NCBI GenBank assembly: GCA_012518265.1
Contig: JAAYST010000026.1
Span: forward strand, 1-32,804
DNA from: Candidatus Methanofrustulum fimipullorum
GTDB taxonomy: Archaea; Halobacteriota; Methanosarcinia; Methanosarcinales; Methanosarcinaceae
DNA: 32,804 bases
Direction of reading: 5' to 3'
Shown: positions 16,216-28,958 of the stretch, in pieces
Layout: every line of letters begins with the position of its first letter
Position numbering within the stretch: position 1 is the stretch's first letter
The notes under the pieces: generated by a model
What the model was told of the DNA's origin: nothing
Database searches by the model: none
Seen by the model: the letters and a program-made list of their open reading frames with translations, nothing else
Position numbers and translations under genes: made by a program

Positions 16216-18159
16216 TTAATTTTCATCTCTTTTTCTTTCCGCAACTTTCATTAGAGGTTCAGCTACAGCTTCTTCGTATCGATACATTATTCTTTTGTCA
16301 TGTCTTCTTTGTTTTATATACTCTGCAAGATTTTTGTCAGTACAAAAAACTCTGCAACCTTTCATACCGCGTGTAAGAAGAGCTCGATAAGTATTTCGAA
16401 TAATTTCGTCAACTCGTTTTTTTGCGGATTCCGAATCTGTTTCATAGAGTTTTTTTGCTCCTCTTAAAGATTGATCGCTCTTTGCTCTTCCGTTAATATC
16501 CGTTTTTATAACATCGTCCTCAAAATACATATCGGGTCCGATAATCACGCCGACATAATCAAATTCAAGACCCTGAGAAGTATGGATACAACCTGCTTCA
16601 TTTACGGATTCGGGAGAAATTGCCCAAATTCCTTCATTTAAATTCCAACTAATTCCGAAATTATGTTCCGGAATTTCAATATCATAAAAATCGACGTTAT
16701 TTCTTTCAGCTTTCGGCCATTCCCAACAATAGCCTGCCAAAATTCTTGCTTTATTGTTAAAGTTTTTTGCCAAAACCCAATCATACAATTCCTGAGGTGT
16801 TTTTACAACATCAAAATCATAATCTATATCAAAATATTTATTGGCTGTTTCCCGAATTTGCAAAAGATCGTCTATCCATGCCAAATAACCGTCAGATCCG
16901 TTACAGCGAAACTGTGACAATAGATTATCTTTTAATATAATTGCATTTAAATTATTTGCTTGAAGAACAATTTCATCCACATCGCCGATATCATAAAATG
17001 TTACTTTTTGTCTGTCATCTACAAAAAATATCGAACATTTTGAAGCCTTTATAATTTCTTTTATTTGATTTTCGCCTTTATTTGCAAACATTCCGGATTT
17101 GGCACGGAGTCTGTGAGCTTCGTCAACGATTGCAATATCCAAAACATTTTCATCATAAGAATAAAAAGAATCCGGACCCCTAAACAAATTGTCAATCGAA
17201 CTTACTTTCATAGTTCCTTTGAGTTTTGCTTTGTAAACATTCCTGGGCGCACTGTTTTTGGTTATATATTGTGCAACCATGCCTCTTCTTGTAAGTTCGG
17301 CTAACAAATTAATTGCAACAACGGTTTTTCCTGTACCCGGACCGCCTTCCACAATGAATACACGCTTTTTTCCGTCATTTCCGGATTTTTCCGCCATTGA
17401 AATACAACGTTCAAAAACTACTTTTTGATCATCGATCATTGTGAATTCTCGATTTCCGGAAATCATTGAAGCTATTTTGTCCTGAAGAGATTTCGAAGGC
17501 TTTATCCTTCCGTTTTCGATGTGATATAAAACGCCGCAATCATCTCCTTTTGTAATAAATTGACTTATGAATTTCGCTAAATCCGGACCGCCTCTTTTAT
17601 CAAACAGCGGAGCTTTTTCCAAGACATTACTAAAATCTTCATAAAGTAAAGGATCGTTTTCAGGTTCAATTAAATAATTGTGCAAATAAGCACAAGGATT
17701 CAATCTTATATCGTCCGTCTGTACGGATTCATTAAAATCTGTCAGAAGTTTAGCATAAGACCAAGCCTGATAGCAAGGATGTGCAACCATTCTGAAACCC
17801 CCTCCAACATATGTTTCTACGAGATTGTTAACACCGTCTGCATATGAAACTTCATCCCACTGTTTCAACTCAACTATAACAACATTTGCTTTATCGGATT
17901 CGTCATAACCGCTTATAATAAAATCAATTCGTTTAGCTGTACTGGGAATCATATATTCGATTGCAATTCCTGAATTTCCCGGAACATTTGCATTTGATAT
18001 TACAGTATTCATATATTGAAGAGAGTTTTCCCAAGCTCTGATTTCATTTCTTGAAGCTCTGTGATGCGTTTCTCGAACTTGTCTGTCAAGCTGATCTATC
18101 AAAACCCCCCTAAACATATCGTTTTTAAAACCGTCAACATCGTTACTGTAAATAATCAT
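16216..18159 (-). CDS. Predicted PD-(D/E)XK nuclease fused to a DUF2075-type superfamily 1 helicase
   Basis: The 647-residue protein has two parts. Residues 65-140 look like a RecB/Cas4-like nuclease: Glu69, Asp79 in RIDFIIS, VIVELK with the ExK pair at 97-99, and QAWSY (Q131-x3-Y135). From about 245 follows a helicase: GGPGTGKT (Walker A, 272-279), AIVDEAHRL (Walker B), FVDDRQKV, QFRCNGSDGYLAW, HTSQGLEFDYVG and YRALLTRGMKG (motif VI with the Arg finger). The helicase part matches DUF2075, related to the helicase of Schlafen-type proteins. Its ATG is one base after the MazG stop, with GGAGC inside the upstream gene, so expression is coupled. A defence or DNA-repair role is inference from the fusion and partner; the reaction and target are unknown. 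Confidence 0.8.
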   Translation of the reverse strand: MIIYSNDVDGFKNDMFRGVLIDQLDRQVRETHHRASRNEIRAWENSLQYMNTVISNANVPGNSGIAIEYMIPSTAKRIDFIISGYDESDKANVVIVELKQWDEVSYADGVNNLVETYVGGGFRMVAHPCYQAWSYAKLLTDFNESVQTDDIRLNPCAYLHNYLIEPENDPLLYEDFSNVLEKAPLFDKRGGPDLAKFISQFITKGDDCGVLYHIENGRIKPSKSLQDKIASMISGNREFTMIDDQKVVFERCISMAEKSGNDGKKRVFIVEGGPGTGKTVVAINLLAELTRRGMVAQYITKNSAPRNVYKAKLKGTMKVSSIDNLFRGPDSFYSYDENVLDIAIVDEAHRLRAKSGMFANKGENQIKEIIKASKCSIFFVDDRQKVTFYDIGDVDEIVLQANNLNAIILKDNLLSQFRCNGSDGYLAWIDDLLQIRETANKYFDIDYDFDVVKTPQELYDWVLAKNFNNKARILAGYCWEWPKAERNNVDFYDIEIPEHNFGISWNLNEGIWAISPESVNEAGCIHTSQGLEFDYVGVIIGPDMYFEDDVIKTDINGRAKSDQSLRGAKKLYETDSESAKKRVDEIIRNTYRALLTRGMKGCRVFCTDKNLAEYIKQRRHDKRIMYRYEEAVAEPLMKVAERKRDEN

Positions 18160-18160
18160 T

Positions 18161-18490
18161 TTAAAGCTCCGTATATTTTTTACAATTTCCCGTTGCCTTT
18201 TCTATCGGATATTTTTTCTTATTAATTTCAAGTTTTTCCAACATTATTTCATAAACATCGAAATCCAATTTATCCGCAAGCATAAACGAATATATTAAAA
18301 CATCTGCAATCTCTTCTTTAATTCCTTCCGGATTTTGAACAGATCCCCATTGAAAATGTTCCAACAATTCTGCAGATTCAATCACAATTGACTTAGCCAA
18401 ATTTTCCGGAGTATGAAATTGATCCCAATCCCTTTCAGACACAAAAGTTTTAATCTCTTTTAAAATTTTATCAGAATTCGTCATACTCAT
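18161..18490 (-). CDS. MazG-like nucleotide pyrophosphohydrolase
   Basis: A 109-residue all-α NTP pyrophosphohydrolase of the single-domain MazG/dCTPase type, which hydrolyses (d)NTPs to monophosphate and pyrophosphate using magnesium. The metal ligands are visible as ESAELLEHFQW (ExxE, about residues 38-48) and EEIADVLIY (ExxD, about 79-87). The ATG at 18490 is about 27 nt from a TATA-like TTTTATAA, which suits a leaderless transcript; the ATG at 18484 has AGGA seven bases upstream and is an alternative. It is followed after one base by the nuclease-helicase gene. The pairing suggests a two-gene system in which nucleotide-pool control and DNA or RNA cleavage act together. This link is inferred. 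Confidence 0.85.
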   Translation of the reverse strand: MSMTNSDKILKEIKTFVSERDWDQFHTPENLAKSIVIESAELLEHFQWGSVQNPEGIKEEIADVLIYSFMLADKLDFDVYEIMLEKLEINKKKYPIEKATGNCKKYTEL

Positions 18491-18660
18491 TTCCTAAAAA
18501 TTTATTCGATTTTTTATAAAATTATTTAATATTTAAAAAGGTATAAATATAAAAAGTTCACCACGTGAAATGAACATAAAAAATGCGAAATAAAAGAGAA
18601 AACTTAAACCTAAAATCTCAGTTCTATAAAAAATCAAAAACAACATCATTAGAATGTTTT
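18491..18660. promoter_or_regulatory. Upstream region of the MazG/helicase pair
   Basis: TTTTATAA near 18514-18521 (minus strand) is the nearest TATA candidate. A second candidate, TTTTTATATTTATAC, lies at about 18541-18555 and directly abuts the palindrome TTCAC-CAC-GTGAA (18557-18569), which could be an operator. The stretch to 18660 shows no reading frame I would support. Confidence 0.35.
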
Positions 18661-18662
18661 AA

Positions 18663-18837
18663 AAAATTAATTCCAGTATTTGAGACAATTTCATTCCAGT
18701 ATTTGAGACATTTTCATTCCAGTATTTGAGACAATTTCATTCCAGTATTTGAGACGATTTAATTACAGTGTTTGAAGAATTTTCATTCCAGTATTTAAAG
18801 AAAATCCATTCAGGTATTTGACGAATTTCGTTTAAGT
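18663..18837. repeat. 23-bp tandem repeat, eight units, in phase with the MFS stop codon
   Basis: The unit is TTCCAGTATTTGAGACAATT plus three bases. Units start at 18671, 18694, 18717, 18740, 18763, 18786 and 18809, each exactly 23 bp apart. The next expected start, 18832, is the TTAAG that contains the stop codon of the MFS gene. Units become more diverged towards the gene. With 18491-18660 it accounts for the 341-nt gap without a gene. Confidence 0.9.
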
Positions 18838-20088
18838 TGTTGCTGCTTTATTCATTCTGAAATAAAGTGCAGAAGCTATTATCTCCATCACAACGGTAAA
18901 TGCGATAATTAATATCGTCAAATTCATATCGTAAAGAAGTCCCGCAAATGCAGATCCGGCAAATAGTGCCAAGCCGTAAGCCGTATTAAAAATACCGTAG
19001 CCTGTTCCGCGTTTGTGATAGGGAGTTATGTCCGCAATTGCGGAACGCATGATTGTTTCGTGTGTTCCCATTATGATTCCGAAAAGCATCATTCCCAGCA
19101 CGATTAATGTCGTTGAATTGCTCAATGCAAGCAAAGGAAGCGGTATTGTAATCAATGGAATTAATGCCAAGACAAGAATTCCTCCGGTTTTCTTTTTGCT
19201 TTTATATTTTAAATGATCATATGCTTTCCCGATGATAATCGCTGTTACGGCATCAACGAGCATCGCAAACGAATAGAGTAAAGTAATATTACCATCAGAC
19301 ATCAGTCCGTTTGCCTTTAAATGATATCCGATTATACTGAAATTTACAAAACCTGCTGTGCAGAAAAATGTAAATAAGGTGTAGTGCCAAAATACAGGTT
19401 CCAGTTTTTCGTTTTTAAAATTCTTACTCTTATTTTCAACATTGGACAACAAATTCATGCTTTTTATTTTTTTATAGGCAAAATACAAAAAAAGCATTAA
19501 AAGGATAAAAGGCACAATCTGCATTTTGTAGCCTAACTGATATTCGGCAATTCCGCTTTTGCCCATAAAGTAAAAGATTGCGGTAAAGAACAGAGGTCCT
19601 AAAAATGCGCCAAGCTGATCCAATGCTTCCTGCAATCCGAAAGAAAAACCGATTCCGACCTGATTTTCCGCAACTCCAGATAAAACCGTATCTTTAGCAG
19701 GATTTCGTAAGGCCTTTCCGATACGCTCCATTAATATCAAAATTACAAGAATATTCCAATCCATCGTAAAACCGATTAACGGAACACTTACCAGCATGCC
19801 GTAGCCCACAAACATAAAAACCCAATGCTTGCCGCTCTTATCAGATAAAATGCCGGCCAAAAGCCTTAGTGCATAGCCCAGTAATTCACCGACACCGAAA
19901 ACAAGCCCGACTGTTGCTGCACTGAATCCCAATAAATTCAAATACTGACTGTTTGCACTTCTCGCCGATTCATAAATAATGTCGCCGAACATGCTGATTA
20001 TACCGAAAATTATAATCACGGTTACTGCCGTTGAAATCAATTTATTTGAATTCGAAATCACGTCTTTTTTTGACGACATAGACGACAT
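18832..20088 (-). CDS. Major facilitator superfamily transporter
   Basis: An integral membrane protein of 418 residues with about twelve hydrophobic segments. It shows the MFS motif between helices 2 and 3 as LAGILSDKSGKHW, and a Lys/Asn-rich cytoplasmic loop in the middle (KNFKNEKLEP). GIFNTAYGLALFAGS near the C-terminus is of the type found in drug or metabolite exporters of the YajR-like kind. The substrate cannot be told from sequence. A GTG at 20097 is in frame, but the ATG at 20088 has GAGTGG five bases upstream and is preferred. The 3' end runs into the 23-bp tandem array. It lies 67 nt downstream of aroC. Confidence 0.88.
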   Translation of the reverse strand: MSSMSSKKDVISNSNKLISTAVTVIIIFGIISMFGDIIYESARSANSQYLNLLGFSAATVGLVFGVGELLGYALRLLAGILSDKSGKHWVFMFVGYGMLVSVPLIGFTMDWNILVILILMERIGKALRNPAKDTVLSGVAENQVGIGFSFGLQEALDQLGAFLGPLFFTAIFYFMGKSGIAEYQLGYKMQIVPFILLMLFLYFAYKKIKSMNLLSNVENKSKNFKNEKLEPVFWHYTLFTFFCTAGFVNFSIIGYHLKANGLMSDGNITLLYSFAMLVDAVTAIIIGKAYDHLKYKSKKKTGGILVLALIPLITIPLPLLALSNSTTLIVLGMMLFGIIMGTHETIMRSAIADITPYHKRGTGYGIFNTAYGLALFAGSAFAGLLYDMNLTILIIAFTVVMEIIASALYFRMNKAATT

Positions 20089-20155
20089 AAATACCACTCG
20101 ATAATTGATATTTTATAATGATGATATTTTTATAATTATTAGGAATTTATAGTAA

Positions 20156-24889: not shown

Positions 24890-26167
24890 ATGAATTTTTT
24901 AAAAAAGCTTTTCGGAATCAAAAAAGAAGTAAAAAGCGAACCGGAGGTTATGACTCCCGATGAGTTTTATGAAACTTTATTGATTGAAAACGAAAAAGTA
25001 GAAAATGATTCTACTGTTGCTTTTAAAAAATATGAAAACGATTTAAAAACTGCTTTAAATTCACTTGAAGAAAGTAATGTTCAATTAACAGATGCAAAAG
25101 TTACCGGGACTTTTGATATAAGAGTTGTAAAACGGGCAAAATCCAATAGGGAAAATGTAAAAAAGCAGGTCGATATTTTAGTAAACAAATTAAAGCCGCC
25201 TGAAGAACCGAGTTTAAACAATATTTTTGAATTTAACGAAAGTTCAATTGCTTCTATAAATTCGTGTTTGGAAAATATGGGCAGGAGTTTTTATTACACT
25301 AAAGCCGTATTTCCCGCGGAGTCTGATAAAGTATCAAGCGACCTTAAAAGTGTCGGTGACTTGATTAATGAAATAAATAATGAAATCTCTGTTTTCAGAA
25401 AAAAATATAACAGAAACAATATTGCGATTTCCGCAGTAGAAGAGTTAAATAAAAAAACAGATTCGGAACAAAACGAACAGGCTTTAATAGATAAGAAGAG
25501 AAACGAAATTGAAAAGTTAAACGAAGAGTTAAAAAATTTGGAAAAACGAATAGAAGATTATTATGAAAGTGAAGATGGAAAAGAAATAACTCTTCTTAAA
25601 AAAGAAACTGAACAATTAAAAGAGGAAGAAAAGGTCGCATTTGACAATATAAAAGCGCTTGTTTTGCCGCTTTTCGGAAATATTTCGGCAATCGTTAAAC
25701 TTCACGAATCAAAAAGATACGGCGTTGATCCTGAATTTAAAAAACGGCTTGAAAAAATAGAAAACGATATTGACACAAATTTGGAATATTTAAATGCTGA
25801 TTTTTTCTCAAAACTCAAAGAGATATTTAAAGACGAAAATTTGGATATTCAAGATCATAAAAAAGAAAAAGCGTATGAAAACTGTGAATTTGCCGAAAAA
25901 CAAATAGGAATAAGAACGGACAAATACAAAAACATACAAAAAGAAATCGAGCAAAAACAAAACAAAATTAAAAATTTCAATATCGATGAAATAAATAAAT
26001 CGGTAAAGGAAAAAGAAGAAATCCTTTTAAAAATCAAACAAATAGAAAACGAGTGCGAAGAAAGCATAAGAAAAAAAGACGCAATTTCAAAACAAAGAAA
26101 CGAAGCAAAGTCAGATTTGGAAAAAATAATAAACTCGTTTGAAAAGAAAATAGAAATAAAGTTTTAA
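24890..26167 (+). CDS. Coiled-coil protein of unknown function
   Basis: I do not recognise this 425-residue protein. It begins with a short basic, hydrophobic stretch (MNFLKKLFGIKKE) that could lie on a membrane surface. Two long charged heptad-rich regions follow, at about residues 190-250 (EKLNEELKNLEKRIEDYY) and 330-420 (KNIQKEIEQKQNKI and onwards), separated by a more hydrophobic segment around LVLPLFGNISAIV. There is no signal peptide, enzyme motif or metal site. A structural or scaffolding role is only a guess. A TTG at 24884 is in frame; the ATG at 24890 is preferred. Its last codons and stop form the first unit of the 23-bp array that follows. Confidence 0.7.
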   Translation: MNFLKKLFGIKKEVKSEPEVMTPDEFYETLLIENEKVENDSTVAFKKYENDLKTALNSLEESNVQLTDAKVTGTFDIRVVKRAKSNRENVKKQVDILVNKLKPPEEPSLNNIFEFNESSIASINSCLENMGRSFYYTKAVFPAESDKVSSDLKSVGDLINEINNEISVFRKKYNRNNIAISAVEELNKKTDSEQNEQALIDKKRNEIEKLNEELKNLEKRIEDYYESEDGKEITLLKKETEQLKEEEKVAFDNIKALVLPLFGNISAIVKLHESKRYGVDPEFKKRLEKIENDIDTNLEYLNADFFSKLKEIFKDENLDIQDHKKEKAYENCEFAEKQIGIRTDKYKNIQKEIEQKQNKIKNFNIDEINKSVKEKEEILLKIKQIENECEESIRKKDAISKQRNEAKSDLEKIINSFEKKIEIKF

Positions 26168-26407
26168 GAACTAAATAAATAAAGTTTTAAGAACTAAATA
26201 AATAAAGTTTTAAGAACTAAACAAATAAAGTTTTAAGAACTAAATAAATAAAGTTTTAAGAACTAAATAAATAAAGTTTTAAGAACTAAATAAATAAAGT
26301 TTTAAAAAACAAATAAATAAAGTTTAAAAAACAAATAGAGATAAAGTTTTAAAAAACAAATAGAGATAAAGTTTTAAAAAACAAATAGAGATAAAGTTTT
26401 AAAAAAC
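26155..26407. repeat. 23-25-bp tandem repeat seeded by the 3' end of the coiled-coil gene
   Basis: The unit GTTTTAAGAACTAAATAAAT plus AAA recurs at 26161, 26184, 26207, 26230, 26253, 26276 and 26299, exactly 23 bp apart. Variant units with GTTTTAAAAAACAAATAGAG follow at 26322, 26346, 26371 and 26396, 24-25 bp apart. The first unit includes the stop codon of the coiled-coil gene (26165-26167), and AATAAAGTTTTAA, the end of the gene, recurs in most later copies. The array ends at the terminator hairpin. Confidence 0.92.
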
Positions 26408-28573: not shown

Positions 28574-28918
28574 TCTTAGCGTCTATGATACGACCTGGCA
28601 GCATTTATCATTTATAATCTTAGAGTCTATGATACGACCCGGCAGCATTTATAATCTTAGCGTCTATGATACGACCCGGCAGCTTTTATAATCTTAGAGT
28701 CTATGATACGACCTGGCAGCATTTATAATCTTAGAGTCTATGATACGACCCGGCAGCATTTATAATCTTAGAGTCTATGATACGACCCGGCAGCATTTAT
28801 AATCTTAGCGTCTATGATACGACCTGACAGCTTTTATAATCTTAGGGTCTATGATACGACCCGGCAGCATTTATAATCTTAGAGTCTATGATACGACCCG
28901 GCAGCTTTTAAATTCTTA
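28574..28918 (+). repeat. 37-bp tandem array, about nine units, between ahbD and ahbA
   Basis: Units begin with TCTTAG at 28574, 28618, 28655, 28692, 28729, 28766, 28803, 28840 and 28877, and a tenth starts at 28914 (TCTTAA) and turns into the hairpin. All intervals are 37 bp except the first (44). The core is GTCTATGATACGACC followed by YGGCAGCATTTATAA-like sequence. Variation is confined to a few positions (GAG, GCG or GGG; CCC or CCT; CAT or CTT). The unit is much richer in G/C than the surrounding gap and is not a multiple of three, so it does not code for protein repeats. There are no unique spacers, so it is not CRISPR. Confidence 0.93.
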
Positions 28919-28958
28919 ATGTCAATGATACGCCGTAGAAACGGCGTATCATTGACAT
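28919..28958 (+). other. Perfect 18-bp hairpin capping the 37-bp array
   Basis: ATGTCAATGATACGCCGT, loop AGAA, then the exact reverse complement. The left arm resembles the array core (GTCAATGATACG against GTCTATGATACG), so the hairpin looks like a diverged array unit followed by its inverted copy. An A-run follows rather than a T-run, so it is not a typical terminator for the plus strand. Possible roles are RNA stabilisation or an end structure of the array. Confidence 0.85.

Follow-up and report, generated by a model that had tools for sequence, protein, structure and literature searches.

Two adjoining genes on the minus strand of a 32,804-nucleotide stretch of DNA from Candidatus Methanofrustulum fimipullorum (the window, meaning here the whole stretch analysed) encode a MazG-like protein and a nuclease-helicase, which raises the question of whether the two form a defence pair, as a first-pass annotation of the sequence had proposed, or have some other reason to stand side by side.

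Domain make-up of the two proteins

The MazG-like gene comes first (18161–18490, minus strand, 109 aa) and is followed by the nuclease-helicase gene (16216–18159, minus strand, 647 aa), with the single base 18160 between the two open reading frames, exactly the spacing of stop and ATG that the first-pass annotation had described. A Shine-Dalgarno-like GGAG motif lies 7 nt 5′ of the helicase ATG (junction region 18160–18175, minus strand), and because this motif falls within the 3′ end of the MazG gene, translational coupling from MazG to the nuclease-helicase is plausible.

The first protein is predicted to be an all-alpha NTP pyrophosphohydrolase resembling DCTPP1/RS21-C6. It matches Pfam PF12643 well above the family cut-off (1.1e-19, 70.8 bits, cut-off 27), and its residues 14–109 align with human DCTPP1/RS21-C6 (1.1e-17), including the C-terminal KYTxL. 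The metal motif is complete (E38xxE41 and E60xxD63), with E41, E60 and D63 invariant in an alignment of 57 of 57 homologues, so that both profile and ExxE...ExxD motif place the protein among the MazG-like/dCTPase enzymes. Its start may lie at Met3, which has AGGAA upstream. MazG and DCTPP1 enzymes are house-cleaning enzymes; human DCTPP1 shares the alignment and metal motif but works as a stand-alone enzyme.

In the second protein, defined from its open reading frame, Pfam matches and an AlphaFold2 model, residues 265–608 (16336–17367, minus strand; also recovered by genome search) form a predicted SF1 helicase domain. They match Pfam SLFN-g3_helicase, PF09848, at 4e-97 (326 bits, cut-off 24); this family was formerly called DUF2075, the helicase type that had been claimed for this gene. 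Walker A (GGPGTGK, 272–278) and Walker B (DEAH, 346–349) motifs are present, and K278 of Walker A, E347 and Q529 are invariant in all 66 aligned homologues; together with the profile match, these motifs assign the 647-aa protein to the SLFN-g3/DUF2075 helicases. A fold search with the whole protein, dominated by the helicase, placed this half near DSH9, SLFN11, RecD2 and Dna2.

Residues 1–240 (17440–18159, minus strand) gave no Pfam match. However, E68, D79, E97, K99, H127, Q131 and Y135 are identical in 66/66 homologues, and the nuclease residues read from the sequence earlier (Asp79, ExK at 97–99 and QxxxY at 131–135) are therefore all in place and invariant, with E68 in addition. Structure prediction followed by comparison with PD-(D/E)XK folds, which had been suggested as a check, yielded high-confidence models (pLDDT 90.1 and pTM 0.87 at full length; pLDDT 92.0 for residues 1–240 alone) that match PD-(D/E)XK nucleases. 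The top Foldseek match of residues 1–240 in the PDB was Card1 (E 4.1e-4, probability 0.99), followed by weaker matches of which many are PD-(D/E)XK enzymes (BsmI, EndoMS, EcoO109I, SfsA, EcoT38I, BstEII), all with modest TM-scores of about 0.3. Searching the PDB with the sequence of this domain found nothing, and only the fold search gave matches; since sequence search misses the fold, the domain is a divergent member of the PD-(D/E)XK superfamily, to which the modelled core fold and the D...ExK site assign it.

Upstream of the pair (18491–18600, minus strand), the sequence contains a TATA-like stretch rich in A and T, as well as the inverted repeat TTCAC-CAC-GTGAA (18557–18569), neither with support for a role. 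The repeat had been taken as a hint that the pair has its own regulation, a suggestion that did not hold up: the intergenic region contains five inverted repeats of this size against a mean of 8.9 in shuffled sequences, which is not above chance, and we rejected the palindrome as an operator. Between the pair and a neighbouring MFS transporter gene, positions 18658–18821 hold five to six tandem 23-bp repeats (ATTCCAGTATTTGAGACAATTTC), which have no second copy in the genome and were rejected as the mark of a mobile element. Two further minisatellites, at 28609–28932 (37-bp unit, 8.8 copies, 92% match) and 26154–26402 (23-bp unit, 10.6 copies, 94% match), are apparently not CRISPR because the arrays were reported without spacers.

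Distribution of the pair and its insertion site

The pair had been taken as accessory, and its distribution agrees. Real helicase orthologues occur in four of 112 genomes of the same family, a count that leaves out short P-loop matches, and a MazG of this type in two of the 112. Another genome of the same genus (65% complete) lacks both, and 12 of 394 genomes in a sample of the phylum were positive. The best 80 relatives in the GTDB collection share 46–55% identity and come from Bacillota, Bacteroidota, Pseudomonadota, Spirochaetota, Nitrospirota, Saccharibacteria and others, as well as from haloarchaea, Methanobrevibacter and a Woesearchaeote.

In quick trees without bootstrap, the window helicase nests with six Bacillota sequences, mostly from gut or rumen (SH-aLRT 96), and the window MazG falls inside a mainly Bacillota set (16 rows, support 95). 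The helicase of another family member (L006) groups instead with the Woesearchaeote and is read as a separate acquisition.

Two relatives from other genera (G006 and G004) keep the gene order CPxCG protein, riboflavin kinase, ribB, about 1 kb, aroC, g27298, g29224, g29752 and g30365; in G006 that 1 kb contains one cation-efflux-like gene. The window has the same order, but with the pair and the MFS gene between ribB and aroC, with aroC inverted and with further genes beyond aroC. The pair thus lies outside the ancestral locus, at a rearrangement, and is neither universal in family or phylum nor present at these two orthologous loci. Its patchiness in the family, its absence from the orthologous ribB–aroC loci and its position among Bacillota in the trees all point to horizontal acquisition. 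The MFS gene (18832–20097), whose matches in relatives are only 23–29% identical, may have arrived together with the pair. GC content was uninformative as a signal of transfer, with 31–36% for the pair against 35% for the window, although a GC3 of 0.26 is at the low end.

Some relatives reside on plasmids, and the pair itself was found on Microcystis phage Mwe-JY31 and on one IMG/VR contig, as would be expected if the module served conflict between mobile elements or counter-defence, with plasmids or phages using it to exclude competitors or to degrade host DNA, and the copy described here stranded in a chromosome. We consider this improbable, as most of the copies found are on chromosome-size contigs and a scan of 50,697 phage records gave matches in only 4.

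Pairing across genomes, variants and flanking genes

Co-occurrence of the two genes across genomes, a check that had been proposed for the pair, was counted at the 76 homologous loci that had 600 nt or more of sequence on either side, and the outcome was positive. A same-strand MazG gene lies within 150 nt at 44 of these (34 upstream and 10 downstream), with adjacency spanning many bacterial and archaeal phyla and a 4-nt overlap as the commonest gap; five more loci have a MazG nearby, and 27 have none, so that pairing is not obligatory. In two haloarchaea, the downstream MazG comes from a deeply divergent branch of the MazG tree, suggesting that MazG was recruited by the nuclease-helicase more than once.

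Adjacency might instead reflect a loose operon, in which MazG, as a general-purpose mobile house-cleaning gene, would have no joint function with its neighbour. The loci lacking MazG are compatible with this, as is the frequency of MazG-type pyrophosphatases as phage cargo (phrog_3301); moreover, in G050 (L172, 7890–9922) a PolB-like gene of 555 aa, and not the nuclease-helicase, follows a MazG of this type. Against this, the two genes have stayed adjacent in many phyla, often as a 4-nt overlap, and in two haloarchaea a deeply divergent MazG takes the downstream position; of the explanations considered we give this one the least credence. The start of the G050 PolB-like protein (MRLFEGTIQDF) resembles the nuclease-helicase N-terminus, and the gene is possibly a deletion remnant.

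At least ten bacterial relatives from several phyla (L083, L092, L097, L103, L108, L110, L115, L118, L124 and L080) are about 150 aa longer and carry a C-terminal LexA/UmuD-type signature, GESMxxxIPxG...K. Pfam called Peptidase_S24 in three of four long relatives tested (1.1e-6 to 5.7e-10), and the archaeal nuclease-helicase has no S24 domain. This S24-fused branch is as compatible with a role in DNA damage as with one in infection.

We next consider the genes around the relatives, scanned with PADLOC profiles at E ≤ 1e-20. Among 238 flanking genes, matches comprised the NUDIX family PDC-S07 (six genes), mREase_IV (five), Orf5/HEC-06 (three) and BrxF (two), and one each of PD-Lambda-5 A, PD-Lambda-5 B, SoFic, AbiEii, MTase_II, RT_UG30 and PDC-S41; at least 23 of the 238 thus belong to defence families if these tallies, given per family and not per gene, are read as different genes. 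For comparison, a scan of 119 genes beside aroC in these genomes gave matches to 30 profiles. Each of the profiles listed was hit by a single member, and almost all of them describe helicases, so that probably one gene is behind them and the rate is about 1 in 119. The flanks of relatives are therefore enriched in defence families over the aroC neighbourhood, a comparison made without a p-value and against surroundings biased to housekeeping genes. On annotated plasmids, a Methanosphaera relative lies near BREX-4 pglZ/brxL, another near Druantia DruA, and a Hymenobacter relative has restriction-modification genes and another DUF2075 gene in its vicinity; in the latter (L127, 12001–15987), two nuclease-helicase genes stand in tandem. 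Many relatives stand among ordinary genes.

The proposed count of nearby defence genes therefore came out in favour of the relatives, which combine association with defence genes and a horizontal, patchy distribution, but not of the window's own neighbours. The PADLOC profiles found no convincing defence gene among the other 30 genes of the window, which is not a defence island; its one strong match is to viperin profiles and most probably comes from an ordinary radical SAM enzyme.

The main rival to a defence function is an accessory DNA-repair module, in which the nuclease-helicase would process ends or forks in the manner of Dna2 or RecD2 and MazG would clean damaged dNTPs during repair synthesis. 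Dna2 and RecD2 among the structural neighbours, the LexA-like S24 domain of bacterial relatives and the house-cleaning role of MazG and DCTPP1 speak for it, while the patchiness of the pair, its movement between domains, its occurrence on plasmids and phages and the excess of defence genes in the flanks of its relatives over those beside a housekeeping gene speak against it; on balance, we regard repair as unlikely.

Relation to known systems and a possible mode of action

None of the PADLOC models comes close to this nuclease-helicase subfamily, and the best matches of the window protein are PDC-S41 (6.7e-15), AbiO (1.5e-13) and Nhi (6e-12). PDC-S41, a phage-defence candidate defined by a single gene, is matched over the nuclease and helicase regions, at up to 1.5e-19 in relatives, but in the window the match is split into three stretches and is far from the roughly 1e-240 of true members among neighbours, which places the protein outside that family. 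Nhi of Staphylococcus epidermidis and AbiO are likewise single-chain proteins, and the window protein matches their SF1-type helicase region; however, the match covers this part only and not the full-length profiles, and no MazG partner has been described for either. Nhi is reported to be a nuclease-helicase that acts against phages and is set off by phage SSB, and an involvement of SSB-coated or replicating DNA is reported for both Nhi and Hna (PMC10732053); a NERD nuclease domain is given for Nhi-like proteins (PMC10952713). The helicase half also resembles the group-3 helicase of Schlafen proteins (SLFN11, SLFN14), but by Pfam the window protein is without the Schlafen core (AlbA-type) RNase domain and has the predicted PD-(D/E)XK N-terminus instead, and it would not be a Schlafen proper.

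A parallel arrangement recurs beside the nuclease-helicase itself (L074, L085, L090, L111 and others), where a DUF3427 helicase-PLD protein is accompanied by a NUDIX hydrolase (PDC-S07), in L074 and L085 as a direct neighbour. This too is a nuclease-helicase adjoining a nucleotide pyrophosphatase, but with an SF2 helicase, a PLD nuclease and NUDIX in place of MazG, and it is not homologous throughout. In Corynebacterium, a helicase-PLD and MutT pair was replaced by an island (PMC5379612). Nucleotide enzymes including MazG are predicted, unvalidated defence parts, and DefensePredictor includes MazG in its set of predicted defence domains that are as yet uncharacterised (PMC13092281). A paper describing the present pair (DUF2075 or Schlafen with MazG) was not found in the literature searched, a body that leaves out most subscription journals, and this literature yielded no antiviral assay for the subfamily.

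The absence of the pair from the relatives' locus, the gut-bacterial origin of its nearest versions, its pairing across phyla and the defence genes beside its relatives make it a good candidate antiviral system. The domain composition of the two proteins, the invariance of their active sites, the retention of the pairing and its patchiness are direct observations, and with the nuclease fold they back the original proposal of a candidate defence pair. We put the probability that this is a horizontally acquired two-gene defence module, uniting a nuclease-helicase with a nucleotide-pool enzyme and acting against viruses, at roughly 60%.

In such a defence module, by analogy with Nhi and Hna, the SF1 helicase would engage replicating or broken invader DNA, perhaps coated with SSB, and the PD-(D/E)XK domain would cut the DNA so engaged. 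The co-translated MazG would hydrolyse dCTP or non-canonical dNTPs to the corresponding NMPs, leaving the virus a smaller or a filtered supply; since about a third of the homologous loci have no MazG, it would be an auxiliary part. More tentatively, and with clearly lower confidence, the pair may represent an unnamed two-component immune system shared across domains, in which the nuclease-helicase cuts viral DNA, MazG destroys a specific, possibly viral and modified, dNTP, and a bacterial branch is switched by the LexA-like S24 domain.

Phage defence makes repeated use of nuclease-helicases. The pair is conserved in haloarchaea and methanogens as well as in Bacillota and Bacteroidota, has a branch fused to S24 and is paralleled by DUF3427 with NUDIX; it offers a testable case for the question why DNA-degrading motors travel with nucleotide hydrolases.
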